This document shows, piece after piece, positions 1,550-32,528 of a DNA stretch of 32,528 bases; the stretch's first letter is position 1; the number at the start of each line of letters is the position of its first letter. A program made the translations under genes and the position numbers. Below the pieces are notes generated by a model. The model saw only the letters and a program-made list of their open reading frames with translations, did no database searches and had not been told where the DNA came from. This DNA comes from a virus. The stretch covers positions 1 through 32,528 of IMG/VR virus record IMGVR_UViG_3300032286_000827. One strand, 5' to 3'.

Positions 1550-1707
1550 CTGCCCTCCCTAAAGAATCGACGCACTTGATCGACTACCCACCCAAGCACG
1601 AGTACGGCCACAGTTAGACCGGCGATTCCAGAGCCTACGAATAAAGCCCAGCCAGTGATCAGCATGGATAACTGGGCAAGATCGCGCATTACTTCCCACG
1701 AAATCAT
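1546..1707 (-). CDS. Small single-pass membrane protein (53 aa)
   Basis: I place the start at the ATG at 1707-1705, which overlaps the stop of the upstream frame as ATGA. A longer start at 1743 exists but gives an unlikely N-terminus. The product has a hydrophobic stretch from about residue 11 to 41 (ALFVGSGIAGLTVAVLVLGWVV) and a basic C-terminus (RRFFREGR). It is probably an inner-membrane protein with its C-terminus inside. Its position at the head of the early operon would suit a host-takeover or superinfection-exclusion peptide, but nothing proves that. Confidence 0.55.
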   Translation of the reverse strand: MISWEVMRDLAQLSMLITGWALFVGSGIAGLTVAVLVLGWVVDQVRRFFREGR

Positions 1708-1961
1708 TTGCTGGCCTCGTGTTGGGCGTGCCACATACGGCACACGGCGGGGTTTGGGTGATAAACGAACGCTTCGGGGGTCAAATTGTACCCGCCCCGC
1801 GAATTTAAATTTAGTTGTTGGTAGTGAGCCTTTTTAGGCTCAGTTATTACTGCCGTGTTACTGTCTCGGCTTAAGTCATTGTAACGATAAGCATCGGACG
1901 GGGTGGGATTTGAACCCACGGTTCTATCTCCTTCTTTGATTTGATTGATTATGCTTTGCAT
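1704..1961 (-). CDS. Open frame reading through the attP-like site
   Basis: This 85-codon frame starts at an ATG at 1961-1959 without a clear Shine-Dalgarno and ends in an ATGA overlap with the next gene. It contains VGSNPTPSD, the usual artefact of translating a tRNA T-arm and acceptor end, because the frame crosses the tRNA-like segment at 1895-1919. Either it is a real leader gene that integration would break in two, or only its 3' part matters as the upstream partner in translational coupling. Coding status is uncertain. Confidence 0.3.
   Translation of the reverse strand: MQSIINQIKEGDRTVGSNPTPSDAYRYNDLSRDSNTAVITEPKKAHYQQLNLNSRGGYNLTPEAFVYHPNPAVCRMWHAQHEASK
1825..1842. other. Short perfect stem-loop downstream of the attP-like site
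   Basis: TGAGCC, a TTTTTA loop and GGCTCA form a perfect six-base stem. It lies about 55 bases beyond the tRNA 3' end in the direction of leftward transcription. There is no U-run on either side, so it is a poor intrinsic terminator. It could be a processing signal or an accessory protein site near attP. Confidence 0.4.
1895..1921 (-). other. attP-like site: 3' end of a tRNA gene
   Basis: Read on the minus strand, a five-base T-stem (GTGGG) and a TTCAAAT loop at 1919-1903 are followed by CCCGTCC and G, which fit the 3' acceptor strand and discriminator base. No matching 5' half (GGACGGG) is present nearby, so this is a fragment and not a tRNA gene. It lies about 90 bases from the integrase start. 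Together these mark the segment a phage carries to restore a host tRNA gene after integration. G73 and the base context fit tRNA-Ser, but the isotype is uncertain. ATGC follows, not CCA. The exact crossover core cannot be defined without the host site. Confidence 0.75.
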
Positions 1962-2011: not shown

Positions 2012-3109
2012 ATGGCCTATTCCTACATTAAGAAAGGCAATCCGTGGTTCTATATTCGTTTTAAAGATCCGTCCGGCAAGTGGCGTACTAAAAGCACCCG
2101 CTACAGAATCGACAATACGCTTCATCGCGCAAAGGCAACGGCCGAGGCCGCTCGACTTGGCGTTAACGAAAAGCGAAAAGATTGTGGCCACGAATGGGTT
2201 GATGATTTGATTGAAAATCATCCCGTTTCCCCTCTGACAAAAGTTTATTACAGAAACTGCTGGCGTCATCTTGCTCGTTTTATTAGTGAGAAAAAAATAA
2301 CCCTGCAAGCGTTTTCTGCATTCGATTGTGAAATTTATTTGCGATGGCGCCAAGGCCTTCCCCGCACGTCCGGCGGTAAGGCGGGTAGGAACCAAGCGTG
2401 CCAAGATCTGAAGATTCTTAAATGGATTCACCGCCAAGGCCGACTGCTTGGCAAAATGGATTCCGTTGCTCTTTTGGATTACAGAATTAAAAGGGGGCCG
2501 ATCGGACGAGTTAAACCCGTGTTTTCGGACAATGAAATTAAAATCACCCGGAAAGCCCTGGCTGTGGAAGGTGTGCCCGAATGGATGCGAGTCAGCTTTG
2601 AGATTGCCCTGGCTACGGGGTGCAGATTGCGTGAAACGCAGATTCCCTTGGAATGCGTCGATTTGAAGAACCGCATCCTTACTTTCCCCTGCCCCAAGGG
2701 TGGCACGGGCAAATCGTTTAGCATTCCCATCCCGGCCGCTATAGAACCCATGCTGGCCAGAATGAAGGCCGAGGGACGCGAGGTGACTTGCATCGTTCCC
2801 CGCACGCAAGCATCGCTTTGCTGGCGTCGACTGCTGAATATATGCGGTCTTAAACGTCACTGTTTTCATTCCTTGCGGGTAACTCGCGTGACTCGATTGA
2901 GGCTTTCAGGGTGTTCGCAATCTGTAGCCATGAGACTCGTGAATCACTCCTCGACGTTAGTTCACGAGCTTTACCAGCGGCACTGCGTAGACGATCTCCG
3001 CGATGCTGTGAATTTAGGCCAGTCTGCATCAGCCTCCACCGATCAAAGTCACTCGGAATTACCTTCCCGGCAATCAGCGGGAATCCAGGCAGTGCCTGCA
3101 TTTGCTTAA
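2012..3109 (+). CDS. int: Tyrosine recombinase (phage integrase)
   Basis: This 365-residue protein has the full catalytic set: R205 (GCRLRE), K229 in the beta-hairpin, H286 and R289 (HSLR), H312 (VNHSS) and Y321 (LYQRH). The N-terminus (about 1-55, MAYSYIKKGNPWFYIRFKD) looks like an arm-site DNA-binding region, followed by a core-binding domain. It would integrate the phage at the host tRNA gene matching the fragment at 1895-1921. It is on the plus strand, against the surrounding leftward transcription, and its last 260 bases overlap the convergent HTH gene at 2850-3215. About 44 residues follow the catalytic Tyr, a somewhat long low-complexity tail. Confidence 0.95.
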   Translation: MAYSYIKKGNPWFYIRFKDPSGKWRTKSTRYRIDNTLHRAKATAEAARLGVNEKRKDCGHEWVDDLIENHPVSPLTKVYYRNCWRHLARFISEKKITLQAFSAFDCEIYLRWRQGLPRTSGGKAGRNQACQDLKILKWIHRQGRLLGKMDSVALLDYRIKRGPIGRVKPVFSDNEIKITRKALAVEGVPEWMRVSFEIALATGCRLRETQIPLECVDLKNRILTFPCPKGGTGKSFSIPIPAAIEPMLARMKAEGREVTCIVPRTQASLCWRRLLNICGLKRHCFHSLRVTRVTRLRLSGCSQSVAMRLVNHSSTLVHELYQRHCVDDLRDAVNLGQSASASTDQSHSELPSRQSAGIQAVPAFA

Positions 3110-3215
3110 TCCGCACGTAGCCGAACCCGTAAGCAGCGCCTAGTTGGCGAAGGGAAAGAGCTTGGTTCTCCTGGCGGAGTTTCATGGCAACATCGTTGAG
3201 ACGCCCCAAGCTCAT
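2850..3215 (-). CDS. HTH protein, candidate excisionase
   Basis: This protein has up to 121 residues. Residues about 20-60 (LSLRQLGAAYGFGYVRIKQM ... FPLIAGKVIPSDFDRW) read like a small winged-helix/MerR-type domain of phage excisionases and AlpA-like proteins. It starts seven bases after the RHH gene stop, so the two are likely cotranscribed. The downstream half overlaps the integrase 3' end in antisense and is less convincing as folded protein. An excisionase role is inferred from position beside int and from the fold-like pattern. A plain DNA-binding regulator is the alternative. Confidence 0.55.
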   Translation of the reverse strand: MSLGRLNDVAMKLRQENQALSLRQLGAAYGFGYVRIKQMQALPGFPLIAGKVIPSDFDRWRLMQTGLNSQHRGDRLRSAAGKARELTSRSDSRVSWLQIANTLKASIESRELPARNENSDV

Positions 3216-3222
3216 AGAGATA

Positions 3223-3378
3223 CTATTGCTTATCCTTTTCTTCGAGCTGCGCCTCGATGAGTTGCGTAACTAACTGCGAAAAGGAAAGACGGCGATCGTC
3301 TGCAAGTTTAAATCCAGCCTTCTTAACATCGATCGGCAGATAGAGATTGGTTTGCTCATTTTCTATCGCTCGTGCCAT
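3223..3378 (-). CDS. Ribbon-helix-helix regulator, Cro-like position (51 aa)
   Basis: The frame from the ATG at 3378-3376 to the TAG at 3225-3223 encodes 51 residues with the RHH pattern TNLYLPIDVKKAGFKLADD ... LSFSQLVTQLIEAQLEE: a short beta strand, helix 1, then helix 2. It resembles the divergent protein at 3476-3661 (TNIYLPADIKKKAF ... LSLSAYITQLI), so the two look like paralogs. It is the first gene of the leftward transcript, followed by the Xis-like gene. By analogy with Arc/Mnt or Cro/CI pairs it would be the lytic-side repressor. That role is inference. Confidence 0.75.
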   Translation of the reverse strand: MARAIENEQTNLYLPIDVKKAGFKLADDRRLSFSQLVTQLIEAQLEEKDKQ

Positions 3379-3380
3379 AG

Positions 3381-3413
3381 GCGCACATTGTGCGCACATT
3401 GTAATGCGTCAAT
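3381..3413. promoter_or_regulatory. Left operator-like array: two 11-base tandem repeats plus ATGCGTCAAT
   Basis: GCGCACATTGT occurs twice in perfect tandem (3381-3391 and 3392-3402), followed by ATGCGTCAAT at 3404-3413. The junction also makes the palindrome TGTGCGCACA (3389-3398). An 11-base period puts both sites on one DNA face, as RHH dimers usually bind. The array overlaps the predicted leftward promoter and ends two bases from the 51-residue RHH gene's start. Confidence 0.65.
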
Positions 3414-3426
3414 AGATTTCTGTTAT
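3399..3426 (-). promoter_or_regulatory. Candidate leftward early promoter
   Basis: On the minus strand, ATAACA (3426-3421), a 16-base spacer and TACAAT (3404-3399) give a plausible sigma70-type promoter, with a start near 3392 and a 14-base leader before the RHH ATG. The -10 lies inside the left operator array. A better -35 (TTGACG, 3413-3408) exists but has no good -10 at the right distance. The assignment is tentative. Confidence 0.4.
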
Positions 3427-3440
3427 TTTTTTCTTTAATC

Positions 3441-3469
3441 TTGCATTGCGCACAACTAGCGCATATTAT
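3441..3469 (+). promoter_or_regulatory. Rightward promoter giving a leaderless RHH mRNA
   Basis: TTGCAT (3441-3446), exactly 17 bases, then TATTAT (3464-3469) form a good sigma70-like promoter. The predicted start is near 3476, which is the A of the RHH gene's ATG, so the message would be leaderless, like lambda cI from PRM. The spacer and -10 carry the right operator array. Confidence 0.6.
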
Positions 3470-3478
3470 GCGTCAATG
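3448..3478. promoter_or_regulatory. Right operator-like array
   Basis: GCGCACAACTA (3448-3458) and GCGCATATTAT (3459-3469) are again spaced by 11 bases and are followed by ATGCGTCAAT at 3468-3477. This is a diverged copy of the left array in the same orientation. It sits inside the rightward promoter and over the start codon, so binding would block that promoter. Confidence 0.6.
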
Positions 3479-3661
3479 AATAAGCAGAGAACGAACATTT
3501 ATCTGCCAGCAGACATTAAGAAAAAAGCCTTTGATTTGGCTAATAAAGGGGGCTTATCCCTTTCGGCATATATTACGCAGTTAATTCTGCGGGAATGCGC
3601 GATCGCGGATGGCAGGATTAAGGGTGAACTTGCTATTTTTACCAAGACCAATAAAAAATAA
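3476..3661 (+). CDS. Ribbon-helix-helix regulator, repressor-like position (61 aa)
   Basis: The best start is the ATG at 3476, which gives 61 residues: TNIYLPADIKKKAFDLANKG (strand and helix 1), LSLSAYITQLILRECA (helix 2), then a basic tail. An upstream ATG at 3446 would lie inside the promoter and operators, so I reject it. It is a CopG/Arc-type DNA-binding protein, probably dimeric. It is divergent from a paralog and cotranscribed, four bases apart, with an exported protein gene. The layout suggests the lysogeny repressor. Which RHH protein favours lysogeny is not shown by sequence. Confidence 0.75.
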   Translation: MNKQRTNIYLPADIKKKAFDLANKGGLSLSAYITQLILRECAIADGRIKGELAIFTKTNKK

Positions 3662-3665
3662 GCAG

Positions 3666-4148
3666 ATGAAAACATCCTCATTTATTTGTGCATTCTTTGG
3701 CTTATCATCTTTAGCTCTGTCCCAAGTAAGCAGTAGTTCACAACAAAAAGTGGGTGGTGGAGGATATTTTGTAAGACTTCCAACGGATGCTCAGGCTCAG
3801 AGAATGAAGCAACAGAGGGAAAGCCCAGCGGGTATGACGGCAAAAATGGTATGGGTAACGCCTGGCATGGTAGTGGCAAGGCACAAACAGGATGATGTAG
3901 TTATCCTAGAAATTACTTACATTAAGAAAACCGATAGTGGCGAAGAAGGATCAACCATATTATTAGCCGACCATCCAGATGCCTCAAACATTGCTGTGGG
4001 TGAATCCGCAAAGTGCATTGTGGCGCCTGGGCCAATTCGAGACGATTTTCAAGGCAGACGCCTTTACTATTTTTTCGACAAAAAAGAAGTAACCGAAAAC
4101 AATTTGCGTCAGTTTAAGGCTCAGTACGCCGACGCTGAGTTGGAGTAG
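3666..4148 (+). CDS. Exported protein, candidate lysogenic-conversion factor
   Basis: This 160-residue protein starts at the ATG at 3666. A Sec-type signal peptide is clear: MKTSSF, a hydrophobic core (ICAFFGLSSLAL) and a likely cleavage near LALSQ. The mature part has no family I recognise. It has a Gly-rich stretch (VGGGGYF), then predicted beta-rich sequence (VVILEITYI, STILLADHP, RRLYYFFDKKEV). It follows the rightward RHH gene by four bases and is one of only three plus-strand genes, so it is likely expressed in the lysogen. The gene is visibly AT-richer than the packaging genes, as in phage morons. A role in superinfection exclusion or host fitness is a guess. Confidence 0.6.
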   Translation: MKTSSFICAFFGLSSLALSQVSSSSQQKVGGGGYFVRLPTDAQAQRMKQQRESPAGMTAKMVWVTPGMVVARHKQDDVVILEITYIKKTDSGEEGSTILLADHPDASNIAVGESAKCIVAPGPIRDDFQGRRLYYFFDKKEVTENNLRQFKAQYADAELE

Positions 4149-4440
4149 TAGCCTTATTTAAAGGCGTGAGCCTGTAGTGCGGAACCTTCCTACAGTGGCC
4201 TAAAAACTTCTTCCCCTTTGCATCAACGTGAGGCAATCGGATCACATAGCTTTTTCTCTCAGCCCTGCCGTCTTTAACCAAGCAGGCTAAAAGTTTGTTG
4301 GCGTAATTTGCCGACTTACCCCAAAGCTCGGCGATCTGTTTTTTGGTTAGCCAGCCGGGTGGCACTACCTCCTGACGATACCCAGCGACATATTCCGTTA
4401 GGACAGATGCCCAATCTGACTTTACACTGGGTATCGCCAT
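4114..4440 (-). CDS. Small winged-helix-like DNA-binding protein
   Basis: A strong AGGAGG site four bases upstream of the ATG at 4440-4438 decides the start, giving 108 residues. Residues about 28-72 (WLTKKQIAELWGKSANYANKLLACLVKDGRAERK) look like an HTH in which a recognition helix follows AELWGKS. The basic C-terminus has KATTPTQRRR. It overlaps the end of the phosphoesterase gene by 19 bases and the convergent exported-protein gene by 35. It is the last gene of the late leftward block. Its target is unknown. Confidence 0.6.
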   Translation of the reverse strand: MAIPSVKSDWASVLTEYVAGYRQEVVPPGWLTKKQIAELWGKSANYANKLLACLVKDGRAERKSYVIRLPHVDAKGKKFLGHCRKVPHYRLTPLNKATTPTQRRRTEP

Positions 4441-5165
4441 ACGCCTCCTATGGGTGAAAGCACGTTCACCGTGCATCCCTGCCCGCCTTCTACGTACTCG
4501 CCCCAGGCTATTCCATGCTGCCACCTGGTAACGGATCGCTGGCGCCGGGCGTAGTGCATGCTTGGAATGTCTGCTAGGCAACCAATCGACCAGCCAACGG
4601 GTGCGCCAATGCTGCGGCCTGCGATTCTATCCACCCGGTGCAGGTGGCCCATCACGATAGGCTTTCTGACCATCTCTACGTGGTCGCGCACGGCTGATTC
4701 TGAGAACATAAACCCGTGGCCGAATGCCGTCCCGCCCAGATCACGCCAGCCTTTCTCAATGTCGTAAGGCACATACTGCGCCTTTAGATCCTTGCACATA
4801 TTGTAAATCTCCGACTTGGCCGAGGTGCAACAGTGAGCGACGATTGCGCTAGGCGAGTATTGTAAAGCTGTAAGTCTATGCTCGTGATTCCCCTCATAAA
4901 TCCAGTTTGCGCCCAGTTCTCGGACGAAATTAAGGCCAGCGTCGAAATCCTCGCGGATTGATGCGGTGCGTTCAGGCGAATCCGGATCTTTCCTTGCGCT
5001 ACCCATCAGCCCGGACAGATCCACGAAATCCCCTAAGTGCAGCGTCATATCTGGCTGCCACCTCCGCTTCATCTCTAAAGCAGCCTTGCAAGCGGCCGCG
5101 TTCGCCAGGTGTCCGTGGCTACAGCTAACCGCCAGCCAACGCTTCCACTTGCGGATGGCTTTCAT
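4422..5165 (-). CDS. Calcineurin-like (MPE-fold) metallophosphoesterase
   Basis: This 247-residue protein has most metallophosphoesterase motifs in order: HLGDFVD (about residue 42), EGNHEHR (about 92), FGHGF (about 150) and MGHLHR (about 172). The usual first motif DxH is here SCSHGH, so the Asp metal ligand is replaced by Cys or Ser, which may weaken or change metal binding. Phage members of this family are thought to hydrolyse phosphodiesters or phosphoesters. The substrate is unknown. Its ATG overlaps the preceding stop (ATGA). Confidence 0.8.
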   Translation of the reverse strand: MKAIRKWKRWLAVSCSHGHLANAAACKAALEMKRRWQPDMTLHLGDFVDLSGLMGSARKDPDSPERTASIREDFDAGLNFVRELGANWIYEGNHEHRLTALQYSPSAIVAHCCTSAKSEIYNMCKDLKAQYVPYDIEKGWRDLGGTAFGHGFMFSESAVRDHVEMVRKPIVMGHLHRVDRIAGRSIGAPVGWSIGCLADIPSMHYARRQRSVTRWQHGIAWGEYVEGGQGCTVNVLSPIGGVWRYPV

Positions 5166-18347: not shown

Positions 18348-20479
18348 GCGGCCTCCTTTAGCAAGGCGTAGGCAGCAAGATTCCCGCCTGTGCCTTTGTT
18401 ATTTTGAAGCGCATCCGGCCCTAATCCCTCCTGCCGAATCTTCATTCCGTTTTTTCGATTTAGATCGGAAGTGTAGCAAACCAATGTAGCCACGCCTGCT
18501 TTACGCAGCTCTGTGGTGATCATGTAGTCATCAGCTAAAAAGCGAGCGCGATCTACGGGACTCAACCTGGCAAAATCATTGGCTGCAACGGCAGGCCACA
18601 GATCGGCCATCGGCATGTCCGAACGCCTACACATAACGCCACCGAAACCTTCCAAAATCTCAGCGTACCCGCCGTGATCTATCGCTTCTGCGTAGCCATT
18701 ATTGCCCGTCATAAAAAATCCGCAGACTCCAAGCGCCGTTTTTGGTCTATTGTGTAGCTCTTCAGCGAGGGTCTGCAAAAGTCGTGGGCTGTAGAGAATG
18801 TCGTCGTCCAGCCAACAAATCTTGTCGTCAGGATCCCCGCCTACTTCCAGCGGGCCAATAAACTTGGTCGCAGGCCCGTAGTCCTTCGTGCGGTGAATTT
18901 GTAATTTACCAGAATCGGCCAGCTCTTGTATCTCTTTTGGAATATCCCCAAAGCGTTCCCCTGTTCGCGCCAGTTTTTCGGGCACGGATAGAATGATATG
19001 ATCCGCTGGACGCGATTGGTTCAGCAGGCTTTTTATTGTTGGCAGAATTGTCCCAATACGTTTTGGCGTTGTAGTTAATCCAACAATGACGCGACCTGCG
19101 CGATCAATAGGATCTGGCAGTCGTTGCGCCCCTTGTGGAACGATGCCGTTTTCAATCAGATCCAGATCCCAGCGTAGTCCAGGCATTTTCCCATCTTTGG
19201 CTTGCACGGTAAGCAGAATATCTCCAGCAGCCGCGCCTATGGCTTCATCGGCTGAGTGAACAATCCGATGGCGATCGGCCTGCTTGTTTCCGCGTTGCGT
19301 TATCAGCATGTGCTGAATTGCGGCAGGATCGTCTGCCGTATCTGTATAGAGAGCAAGGGATCGTAAGCACTCTTCAGGCTCTCCAGCGTGTAGCACCGTG
19401 ATTCTGCCCCAAGCTGTTCTAAAGCCTTCCCTAACCATAACCTCGGCTTCTAGGTTTTGTTTATTTGCCCGCAAACATTGCGCCATGAACTGGCGGGGCA
19501 GATGTTTATACCAACGGTTTTCCTGATTCCAATCCGTTGTGTGGGGCATGGAATCCACCATTCTTAAAATGTGATAAGCGGAGACAAAATCTTCGTGATC
19601 CATTCTATCCGCCGCCAGCAATCCGTGCGCTTCACGGCGTAGTGGGCACAGCGTAATGGCTTTGCCCAGATGCTCCAATCGCTTCACCCGATCGGAAAGC
19701 ATCATAGAGGCTTGGGTGTGGAGCTGGTAACGCTCGGCTGGGCCGAGATCCGAATGCTCTAACGCTAACAGGCAAGGGCCGATGGCTTGCTGATATTCGT
19801 TCTTTAAAAAGTGCTCTTGCGCTAGGTAGTACCACTCCATGCCGATGCCGTTAATACGGCTGGCGATGATCCGCTTGTTCCGCTCTGCGCTAGATATCTT
19901 TGGCCCATTAGGGGCATGCAGGATTTTTAGGTGCTCCGCTACTGCAATCTTTGTGTCTTTTGCTGGGGTTACTCGTTCGTGGATCTGTCGCTCCCAATGG
20001 GCTGGGAGTTTGCCGTCATCCATCCTGCGAAAGATTCTTTCCCTACGATTGTTTCGCATTCCTGAGTTCTGCACATCGTATGTAGTTACCAGGATGTCCC
20101 AATCGGTCTTGCCTGCTTCCCTATCCATAATGGCTTGCCGATGAGCCTCTGCCTGACCCGGCTCGAAGATGTCGTCGCAATCTGCCCAGATCACATACTT
20201 GCCCGTGGCTAGGCTGAAGGCTTTATTCCTAGCGGCTGCAAAATTATCGATATGAGGCCAATCCTTAAATTCAGGGCTATTGTGGTACTCCTCGCACACT
20301 AAAGCCTCGCCAGCGGCCTCCTCAGCGCATTGACGCACACTGTGCGCATCATTTGCGCCTACTGCCGGAACGACCACGACTTGATCCCATAGGCCACGGG
20401 ATGACTCAATCAATCTACGCAAAATCGCCCCCTCTCCTGAGCCGGAGATGAGGGCGATTGAGACAAGGGGAGTTTTCAT
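18344..20479 (-). CDS. Two-domain glycosyltransferase (GT2-like plus second GT domain)
   Basis: This 711-residue protein has three parts. The N-terminal GT2-like domain (about 1-215) begins VSIALISGSGEGA and has YVIWADCDDIFEPGQ as its acidic motif. A middle helical, TPR-like segment (about 215-400) carries paired amphipathic helices (EWYYLAQEHFLKNEYQQAI). A C-terminal domain (about 465-711) begins RVIVGLTTTPKRIGTI and has ICWLDDDILYSP as its acidic site. The gene lies between the coat gene and the neck genes, just after a terminator-like hairpin, so it may be expressed less than coat. The likely role is sugar addition to virion protein or host wall. The acceptor is unknown. Confidence 0.75.
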   Translation of the reverse strand: MKTPLVSIALISGSGEGAILRRLIESSRGLWDQVVVVPAVGANDAHSVRQCAEEAAGEALVCEEYHNSPEFKDWPHIDNFAAARNKAFSLATGKYVIWADCDDIFEPGQAEAHRQAIMDREAGKTDWDILVTTYDVQNSGMRNNRRERIFRRMDDGKLPAHWERQIHERVTPAKDTKIAVAEHLKILHAPNGPKISSAERNKRIIASRINGIGMEWYYLAQEHFLKNEYQQAIGPCLLALEHSDLGPAERYQLHTQASMMLSDRVKRLEHLGKAITLCPLRREAHGLLAADRMDHEDFVSAYHILRMVDSMPHTTDWNQENRWYKHLPRQFMAQCLRANKQNLEAEVMVREGFRTAWGRITVLHAGEPEECLRSLALYTDTADDPAAIQHMLITQRGNKQADRHRIVHSADEAIGAAAGDILLTVQAKDGKMPGLRWDLDLIENGIVPQGAQRLPDPIDRAGRVIVGLTTTPKRIGTILPTIKSLLNQSRPADHIILSVPEKLARTGERFGDIPKEIQELADSGKLQIHRTKDYGPATKFIGPLEVGGDPDDKICWLDDDILYSPRLLQTLAEELHNRPKTALGVCGFFMTGNNGYAEAIDHGGYAEILEGFGGVMCRRSDMPMADLWPAVAANDFARLSPVDRARFLADDYMITTELRKAGVATLVCYTSDLNRKNGMKIRQEGLGPDALQNNKGTGGNLAAYALLKEAA

Positions 20480-26671: not shown

Positions 26672-27133
26672 TTATGCACGGCCGCCAAGCTCCTTATAGG
26701 CCCGCACGATCGGCTCCGCTTCGGTCAGGAACTGGCTACGCAGTCCTTCGTTTTGCTTCACGTACCGCATGCCCTTGTTCGTTAGCCACTGACTAACTTT
26801 TATCACTGGCCACAGGAATGACTTAGGCTCAGTCGGTGTGCTGGTCGTGATTGGATCGGGCAGCATCTCAGCCCACAGCATGATCTGCCTGACCACACCT
26901 GGTTCACCGCTCGCCAGCTTGTGCTGATGTGCGGCCACACGTTCCAACCTCTTGCCTTGTTCGTCGGTTAGTCCAGCAGATTCCAGCAACTTGCCTAGAT
27001 CATCACCATTGCTTCTAGCTTTGGCTATAACGCTGCCTGCCATTGCGGCTAGGCTGATCACCTCGCCGACGGCAGTAAGCGTTTCCTCCCGCCTTGTATT
27101 GAGTTCCTTGACTATCTGTTTGAGTGTTTGCAT
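26672..27133 (-). CDS. DUF3102-like helical phage protein
   Basis: This 153-residue mainly helical protein (LNTRREETLTAVGEVISLAAMAG, SAGLTDEQGKRLERVAAHQHKLA) resembles phage proteins of the DUF3102 type, often found near terminase or early-gene borders. A good AAAGGGG site precedes the ATG at 27133-27131. It overlaps the preceding HTH gene by 22 bases. Function unknown. Confidence 0.5.
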   Translation of the reverse strand: MQTLKQIVKELNTRREETLTAVGEVISLAAMAGSVIAKARSNGDDLGKLLESAGLTDEQGKRLERVAAHQHKLASGEPGVVRQIMLWAEMLPDPITTSTPTEPKSFLWPVIKVSQWLTNKGMRYVKQNEGLRSQFLTEAEPIVRAYKELGGRA

Positions 27134-27594
27134 TTGACCCCTTTCATTAGTGCGCCGATTTTAAATTTAGGCGTTTCACGTCGACGCTTGTCGTGATGAC
27201 GCCTTGCCCGCTGTTCGTAAGACTTTCTGGCTGACTCGCTCTTGCCTGCTCTAAACCTAATCCCAAGCCTGTCTGACACGTCTAAAGCCTTCTTACTGAC
27301 GGCCTGCTTGGTAATCTTGAACCGCTTGGCAAGGCTGGTCATAGATTCGGTAGAGCGGTTTAGAACGATCGCTAGGATGCTGTGATCCAGCGTATCGGTC
27401 ATGTTCTGCATCGCTGGATGCTCTGGCGCCTTGGCCATTAGGTACTCAATTACATTGACCGTGTTAGTGATCCCGCACGTGCTTACCGTGATCGTTGCAT
27501 AAGCCTCATTTACCAAGTCCCGCAGGCTATCAATCATCATCGCTGGGTGAGTGTTTTTCCCCGGCATCTTTTCAATCATCTCTTGATCCATCAT
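27112..27594 (-). CDS. HTH DNA-binding protein next to the iteron cluster
   Basis: In this 160-residue protein, residues about 88-110 (SMTSLAKRFKITKQAVSKKA) form a sigma-region-4/HTH-type motif, and the C-terminus is strongly basic (RARRHHDKRRRETPKFK). A GAGGT ribosome site lies nine bases before the ATG at 27594-27592. It is the first gene after the iteron cluster, which lies just upstream of it. It is a likely regulator or origin-binding protein of these repeats. No partner is proven. Confidence 0.6.
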   Translation of the reverse strand: MMDQEMIEKMPGKNTHPAMMIDSLRDLVNEAYATITVSTCGITNTVNVIEYLMAKAPEHPAMQNMTDTLDHSILAIVLNRSTESMTSLAKRFKITKQAVSKKALDVSDRLGIRFRAGKSESARKSYEQRARRHHDKRRRETPKFKIGALMKGVKCKHSNR

Positions 27595-30529: not shown

Positions 30530-30654
30530 CACTGCCCCATTCCCCACCGCATGCGATTGGCGCGGGCGATGATCACTTGCTCTGCGTACTGCTCCGGCGT
30601 GTAAGTACCAATTACGCGGGCGGAGAACATAGTAAGAAGATCGGCTAGGTTCAC
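30526..30654 (-). CDS. Very small hypothetical protein (42 aa, GTG start)
   Basis: The GTG at 30654-30652 overlaps the HTH gene stop as GTGA, and the frame runs 42 codons to the TGA at 30528-30526, which overlaps the next start. The product reads NLADLLTMFSARVIGTY, EQYAEQVIIARAN and ends RWGMGQW. The coupling on both sides supports translation, but function is unknown. Confidence 0.45.
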   Translation of the reverse strand: MNLADLLTMFSARVIGTYTPEQYAEQVIIARANRMRWGMGQW

Positions 30655-30932
30655 AGCACCGCCTTCGGCAGCGGCCCCGCCAGTTTGTAGACGTACTTAT
30701 TGCGATCGTATTCCAGCGGGTATCCGAAAAAGTCACGCAGCAGATCAATATCCCGCTGGATGGTCTTGTAGCTACATTCGAGTTTAACGCCCAACCTAGC
30801 ACAGCTCGGCAGGGTCAGATCTCGGCGCAACATTCCAGCAATCACGCCAAGTCGGCGAAACGTCGGCCGGGTATCGCCAAGGCCAGCAGCCCGATTCCGC
30901 TTAGAAGCAAACGTGGCGGCCTTCGTGGTCAC
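30651..30932 (-). CDS. HTH DNA-binding protein, YafY/DeoR-type
   Basis: This 93-residue protein has a GTG start that overlaps the preceding stop (GTGA). Residues about 30-75 read LGVIAGMLRRDLTLPSCARLGVKLECSYKTIQRDIDLLRDFFGYPLEYDRNKYVY, the HTH and wing of WYL-type or DeoR-like regulators (KTIQRDIDLLR is the recognition helix). The ligand-binding C-domain is absent, so this is a stand-alone DNA-binding unit, perhaps the early-to-late switch. Target unknown. Confidence 0.65.
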   Translation of the reverse strand: MTTKAATFASKRNRAAGLGDTRPTFRRLGVIAGMLRRDLTLPSCARLGVKLECSYKTIQRDIDLLRDFFGYPLEYDRNKYVYKLAGPLPKAVL

Positions 30933-32258: not shown

Positions 32259-32353
32259 TACTGCCAGTCCTTCAGCAAGCGCATGGTCATAAGAGCCAGC
32301 ACGACTGCGGTTGTTGGGAACACGATTTGAATTACTAAAGTTAGGATTTCCAT
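32258..32353 (-). CDS. Very small membrane protein (31 aa)
   Basis: The ATG at 32353-32351 opens 31 codons to a TAA that overlaps the nuclease ATG. Almost the whole product is one membrane helix (LTLVIQIVFPTTAVVLALMTM) with a short basic tail (RLLKDW). The start is repeated at the left end of the window. Too small for homology. It is supported by coupling to the nuclease start. Confidence 0.45.
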   Translation of the reverse strand: MEILTLVIQIVFPTTAVVLALMTMRLLKDWQ

Positions 32354-32528
32354 TTTGGTATTCTTTCTGGCCAAGGCGGGATAGAACCACCTCGGCCAAG
32401 TGCTCAGAACGGCACGGGAGTCCCGTCGGCATCCAACTCCACGACGGCTGGTTTCGGTGCGCCAGGGCGATTGCATTTCCTGACGAAGTCTTTGTCGACT
32501 TTCACTTTGTTAGCTCCAGCAGGCAGTA
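32336..32528. repeat. Right copy of imperfect terminal repeat
   Basis: This segment matches window positions 1-194, as described for that entry. The shared 64 bases at the start are identical. The second part differs mostly at third codon positions. With the left copy it closes the genome into a unit of about 32,335 bases. Confidence 0.85.
32404..32528 (-). CDS. ssDNA-binding-like protein, second allele of the C-terminus (partial)
   Basis: The last 40 codons, ending at a TGA, encode the same sequence as the C-terminus of the gene at 70-552 (KVKVDKDFVRKCNRPGAPKP and the DADGTPVPF end). All codon differences are synonymous. The gene is cut by the window end, so this is the edge of the same locus from another strain. 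Confidence 0.75.
   Translation of the reverse strand, partial: LPAGANKVKVDKDFVRKCNRPGAPKPAVVELDADGTPVPF

Follow-up and report, generated by a model that had tools for sequence, protein, structure and literature searches.

A probable immunity-type switch formed by two divergent ribbon-helix-helix paralogs in a temperate phage genome

Textbook accounts of phage immunity usually center on CI/Cro-type HTH repressors, and in lambdoid phages the immunity regions are exchanged between related phages. The immI region of phage P22 contains divergent genes for two ribbon-helix-helix (RHH) proteins, Mnt and Arc, with operators between them. These small proteins are about 40% alike, and one serves lysogeny and the other lytic growth (PMC7549136, PMC2629481). 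The F55 protein of SSV1, an RHH protein of 55 amino acids, is the main regulator of lysogeny; it binds 11-nt sites that are repeated several times at promoters, its own among them (PMC9608457). YosL of SPbeta is a predicted Arc-type RHH protein that is made upon prophage induction and is tied to the lytic cycle (PMC10516654). Leaderless repressor mRNAs are found in the CI/Cro switch of lambda and in the switch of the telomere phage PY54 (PMC4488713). In mycobacteriophage BPs (PMC4557955) and in Tn916 (PMC7288454), the attachment site is placed such that integration or excision alters gene expression.

We analyzed a viral record of 32,528 bases (IMGVR_UViG_3300032286_000827), and refer to this whole stretch as the window. 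Its terminal 194 bases are repeated at 94% identity (1-194 versus about 32336-32528) and, given these end repeats, the window probably represents a genome that is circular or complete. Since the repeats are only 94% identical, the record may fuse two strains of a population. The locus of interest has the order integrase (int), Xis-like gene, RHH-, a 97-base control region, RHH+, and a cargo gene, with the following features:

1704-1961, minus strand: first leftward (early) reading frame, 85 amino acids, running in frame through the attP core
1894-1921, no strand assigned: attP core TCGGACGGGGTGGGATTTGAACCCACGG, the 3' end of a tRNA
2012-3109, plus strand: tyrosine integrase (Phage_integrase, 6.6e-7; PHROG 1, 2.3e-28)
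2850-3215, minus strand: Xis-like small protein, 121 amino acids, possible HTH; downstream of RHH-, overlapping the 3' end of int in antisense, conserved in relatives
3223-3378, minus strand: RHH-, a 51-amino-acid ribbon-helix-helix protein, proposed to be Cro-like; first gene of the leftward transcript
3380-3410, no strand assigned: left operator-like array, GGCGCA (3380-3385), TGCGCA (3391-3396), and TGCGTC (3405-3410), covering the RHH- leader and -10 region
3398-3426, minus strand: promoter-like site P- of RHH-, ATAACA (3426-3421), 17 bases, TACAAT (3403-3398); a weak match, called by consensus alone
3441-3469, plus strand: predicted promoter P+ of RHH+, TTGCAT (3441-3446), 17 bases, TATTAT (3464-3469)
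3447-3474, no strand assigned: right operator-like array, TGCGCA (3447-3452), AGCGCA (3458-3463), and TGCGTC (3469-3474), in the spacer and over the -10 of P+
3476-3661, plus strand: RHH+, a 61-amino-acid ribbon-helix-helix protein, proposed lysogeny repressor (CI-like)
3666-4148, plus strand: secreted-looking cargo (moron) gene, behind RHH+

All other genes with recognized phage functions, namely nuclease, primase/helicase, terminase, portal, and a D-alanyl-D-alanine carboxypeptidase-like endolysin, are directed leftward.

The divergent RHH pair was conserved among related viruses. We compared the window with 76 viral loci from an integrase search (designated L and a number), and the pair was present in all loci long enough to examine, except L062 and L077. 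The same layout, which the sequence-only reading had suggested looking for in related phages, was common to 65 loci that fall into four allele types by RHH sequence, with the window included: A (6 loci), B (50), C1 (7), and C2 (2). The L062 locus is a 14-kb fragment in which int is present and the Xis-like gene and the RHH pair are missing at the int 3' end. Searching genome contigs with the integrase for a host gave a single relative (54%), whose 3.4-kb contig belongs to a Verrucomicrobia MAG; in 388 Verrucomicrobia genomes there was, besides this relative, just one 30% integrase match, and the exact attB was absent. None of 50,697 GenBank phage records matched the integrase, RHH-, or the remote RHH homologues tried, and no complete tRNA genes, sought as a sign of integrated copies, were found in the relatives.

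The two divergent genes encode paralogs that resemble known RHH repressors. Both short genes were present as the sequence-only reading had claimed, and the sequence patterns that it described as shared were exact (TNLYLPIDVKK and TNIYLPADIKK; LSFSQLVTQLI and LSLSAYITQLI). Its proposal of paralogy held when the two family profiles were compared with hhalign (97% probability, E 2e-11), and the pair in the window is 44% identical over 43 amino acids. Sequence-family matches of the single proteins were weak (E 0.002-0.1); the match to the Arc-like repressors of PHROG 582 had an E-value of 0.008 for RHH- and 0.002 for RHH+. The curated Pfam cut-offs were not reached by RHH- against RHH_5 (14 bits, cut-off 26) or by RHH+ against a NikA-like family (14.7, cut-off 27). 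The AF2 model of RHH- (pLDDT 75.7) resembles CopG-family, VapB, and Arc structures, and the top PDB matches of the RHH+ model (pLDDT 81.3) were Arc repressor, with Foldseek E-values above 0.04 for both. Helices were predicted at residues 12-24 and 29-44 of RHH+ and 16-28 and 33-50 of RHH-, in monomer models that have no assigned strand. As modeled by AF2, both are short proteins with two helices and a match to known RHH structures; members of the superfamily have an N-terminal strand ahead of the two helices. Within allele types, dN/dS was 0.04-0.11 for RHH- and 0-0.08 for RHH+, indicating purifying selection, and we conclude from these values that both are real genes. An alternative start for RHH- at the ATG at 3399 (58 amino acids) is possible and would overlap the left array.

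The region between the two genes contains ordered operator-like units that overlap both predicted promoters. The 97-base gap holds three pairs of units at 11-bp spacing (P about 2e-4 versus shuffles). The sequence-only reading had described two arrays with the same order of units, lying over the two predicted promoters; both arrays do overlap P+ and P-, and the order of units is the same in each, but the spacing is not equal: in the left array, the final interval measures 14 bp and not 11. Units spaced by 11 bp occupy the same place in every allele type. The 42 distinct type-B control regions have spacings of only 11 bp (126 cases) and 22 bp (42 cases). The sequence of the unit varies with allele type: GCGCA in A, TACGC in B and C1, and TGCGCC in C2. 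It broadly matches on both sides of the gap, with exceptions within type B. In a genome-wide scan, paired sites were found only at the switch and as one coding-region match at 20332-20359; this match (GACGCA, TGCGCA, and TGCGCC at 11-bp spacing) is inside a glycosyltransferase gene and may be due to chance.

Promoter P+ was conserved in sequence and position. Its consensus score averaged 8.7 matches of 12 over the 65 loci, compared to 6.6 in shuffles, and the form TTGNNN, 16-17 bases, TA--AT was kept in almost all loci. The -10 ends 6 nt before the RHH+ ATG in the window, and 6-8 nt before it in relatives, a distance so short that the RHH+ mRNA is likely to be leaderless.

The repressor genes and operators have been exchanged between close relatives as a cassette. 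The window and L002 were up to 98-100% identical next to the cassette on its left side; identity fell to about 50% within the cassette and was again about 85-95% from about 4190 onward. Over this right flank the window was likewise about 85-95% identical to several type-B relatives. Over many pairs of type A and type B loci, identity was 85.7% in the left flank and 54.4% in the cassette, compared to 83-88% for cassettes of the same type. Type A appeared at six places in the integrase tree, no better than with shuffled labels, and a single clade was rejected (p-AU 2e-10). Judging from these alignments, the exchanged unit is RHH-, the operators, RHH+, and the cargo gene, and int and the Xis-like gene stay put. 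The place behind RHH+ was occupied by the same cargo gene in the type A locus L007 and by a different small open reading frame in the type A locus L016, and the cargo was absent in the type B and type C loci examined. This pattern of exchange is what an immunity region looks like, and by analogy superinfection may be the selecting force.

The RHH pair travels with the lysogeny module and is dispensable for persistence of the remaining genome. In the remote phage L175 (a 72-kb contig), int is accompanied by two tandem RHH genes and, at the position of the Xis-like gene, a gene of the HTH_17/excisionase family. L175 has three 11-bp operator pairs; all lie between its two RHH genes, and the rest of the 6.1 kb has none. 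A second remote phage, L160 (a 35-kb contig), has int and a divergent RHH pair, followed in the direction of the RHH- homologue by Xis-like and replication genes; from this gene order, the RHH- side probably starts a lytic transcript in L160. Three relatives of 33.7-34.0 kb (L077/L251, L248, and L253) have lost attP, int except for residues 62-129, the Xis-like gene, and the RHH pair. We looked in the relatives for a CI/Cro replacement for the pair and saw loss of the module and no recognized substitute. The more distant L308 had neither int nor RHH genes at the equivalent place.

The lineage of L077/L251, L248, and L253 seems to have abandoned lysogeny. In L248 (4291-4494), L253 (6012-6215), and L251/L077, the remaining piece of int (residues 62-129) is fused in antisense to the early frame, with a promoter-like site before the fusion. 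An antisense promoter-like site within int (TTGCAG-17-TAATAA) is retained in L077-like genomes, and the site is also constrained by int coding. We dropped the idea that P- is the sole early promoter, as L077-like genomes have no P- and still retain early genes.

The attachment site is inside the first early reading frame. The attP core was kept 110-117 bases upstream of int in the relatives examined, and in 45 of 49 loci an ATG is located 45-51 nt upstream of the core and in frame through it. Downstream of the core, changes in length preserved the reading frame. Because attP is inside this frame, integration would part the start of the frame and P- from the other early genes. In L042 and L049, the core is unlike that of the other relatives examined and the tRNA-end pattern is retained, making a change of integration site likely. 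The label Xis-like rests on the position of the gene and an HTH-like stretch, and searches of Pfam, PHROG, NCBIfam, and PDB gave no convincing match for the protein.

Based on the paralogy, the operator-like arrays and their conservation, the allele types and their exchange, and the linkage to int, all of which are directly seen, we think it probable that this locus is an immunity-type switch of a temperate phage made from two RHH paralogs. The sequence-only reading had proposed a switch of the CI/Cro type. The comparative data fit it, given the conserved divergent pair with 11-bp arrays over both promoters, the exchange of the cassette and its coupling to int and an Xis-like gene, and the absence of a recognized CI-like repressor, but its standing as the main switch is, like operator binding, the role of each RHH protein, and immunity, something that we infer.

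The proposed switch would have two states. RHH+ would be the lysogeny repressor, probably made from a leaderless mRNA, with the cargo gene next in most of type A, and RHH- would be its Cro-like counterpart, heading the leftward transcript, with the Xis-like gene next. Both proteins would bind half-sites of the TRCGYA type, one dimer per half-site, and dimers at neighboring half-sites, one helical turn (11 bp) apart, would line up along the same face of the DNA. Occupancy of the right array would shut the RHH+ promoter and occupancy of the left array the RHH- promoter, and the preference of each protein for one array or the other would set the state: in a lysogen, RHH+ would keep P- off, and in the lytic state, RHH- would keep P+ off. 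The recombination of the cassette as alleles between phages is what one would expect of a determinant of superinfection immunity. With 61 amino acids, RHH+ has no room for a self-cleavage domain, and induction must then go another way, perhaps through proteolysis, through an antirepressor, or, like F55 with RadA, by contacting a repair protein.

Alternatively, the pair might be a secondary immunity region like P22 immI that runs a local function (the cargo or Xis), with another protein as the main repressor. Arc and Mnt are an RHH pair in exactly that role (PMC7549136, PMC2629481), the paired operator sites are local, and the window has other HTH-like reading frames that are candidates for DNA binding: an HTH_11 protein (30651-30932), an HTH-like protein (27112-27594), and an HTH-like stretch in 4114-4581. 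However, no homologue of an antirepressor (ant) was recognized near the pair or among the other open reading frames scanned, and RHH- leads instead into the Xis-like gene. The pair adjoins int and the Xis-like gene here, and int in the remote L160 and L175, and the type B loci examined have no cargo gene to control. A separate CI-type repressor, which the sequence-only reading had named as evidence that would count against the switch, was likewise not recognized, nor was a LexA-like one, among the open reading frames scanned (part of the total). We consider a secondary region unlikely. That the two genes are toxin-antitoxin or plasmid-partition genes and form no lysogeny switch is very improbable: there were weak matches to the CcdA, CopG antitoxin, and NikA families and to the HicB-like PHROG 497, but neither gene adjoins a recognizable toxin gene (the gene after RHH+ in type B is convergent with it), and the occurrence of two RHH genes, the operator-like arrays at either side of the gap, and the linkage to int and the Xis-like gene also speak against it.

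The pair might also govern the Xis-like gene alone, and so the choice between integration and excision, with circularization rejoining the lytic genes to their promoter, as in Tn916. This precedent (PMC7288454) is joined by the direct run of RHH- into the Xis-like gene, the location of attP in the first early frame, and the restriction of operators to the switch. By itself, control of excision does not explain why the repressor/operator cassette is exchanged as alleles, a pattern that suggests selection by superinfection, and the replication genes of L160 follow its RHH- homologue with no attP between. We find it quite unlikely as the only function of the pair, and it could coexist with an immunity switch of two RHH proteins instead of competing with it. 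The two could in fact be combined. With paired operator sites limited to the switch and one coding match, direct binding leaves the silencing of the other lytic genes unexplained. Tentatively, and with more doubt than for the immunity-type switch itself, we suggest that there may be a two-step switch without CI, in which the RHH pair gates the firing of P-, integration at attP cuts the lytic operon off from both P- and its own start codon, and only excision, helped by the product of P-, rejoins them. One RHH repressor at one control region would then silence the prophage, and the specificity of immunity would be traded as a cassette.

If the immunity-type switch of two RHH paralogs is correct, then the same switch logic is built from another fold, in uncultivated temperate phages with four allele types. 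The alleles would provide naturally matched repressors and operators with which to study the evolution of specificity, and the switch suggests why searches for HTH-family repressors can overlook that of such phages. The placement of attP points to a simple means by which a single control region could silence a prophage. The sequence-only reading had considered a mirrored RHH/RHH main switch unusual. Its parts do have precedents, in the P22 immI pair and in F55 as a main regulator (PMC9608457). In a limited search of the open-access literature, we found no description of an RHH/RHH pair that is the only recognizable switch, adjoins int and an Xis-like gene, and comes in allele types that are exchanged.

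The locus resembles P22 immI in having, as judged from sequence, divergent paralogous RHH genes with operator-like arrays in the gap. In P22, the primary region is immC, and immI is an additional one that governs the antirepressor Ant, whereas here there is no recognized ant or CI and the pair is located at int and the Xis-like gene. SSV1 F55 is a single RHH protein of a virus with an archaeal host, with no divergent paralog described and with sites across several early promoters; the phage described here has two RHH genes and paired sites only at the switch, apart from the coding-region match. SPbeta YosL is a lone protein beside an unrelated master repressor, MrpR. The placement of attP recalls Tn916 and, more loosely, the integration-dependent immunity of BPs, but the repressor gene of BPs contains its attP, and the attP described here is within the 5' part of the early frame, away from the RHH genes. 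As in lambda and PY54, a repressor gene and a Cro-type gene would be arranged with operators at their promoters, the geometry of the RHH+ promoter resembles that of leaderless lambda cI, and the cargo spot behind RHH+ can be likened to rexAB in lambda. The lambda proteins are HTH proteins, and CI has a self-cleavage domain; here, the two proteins, with 51 and 61 amino acids, are modeled as RHH.
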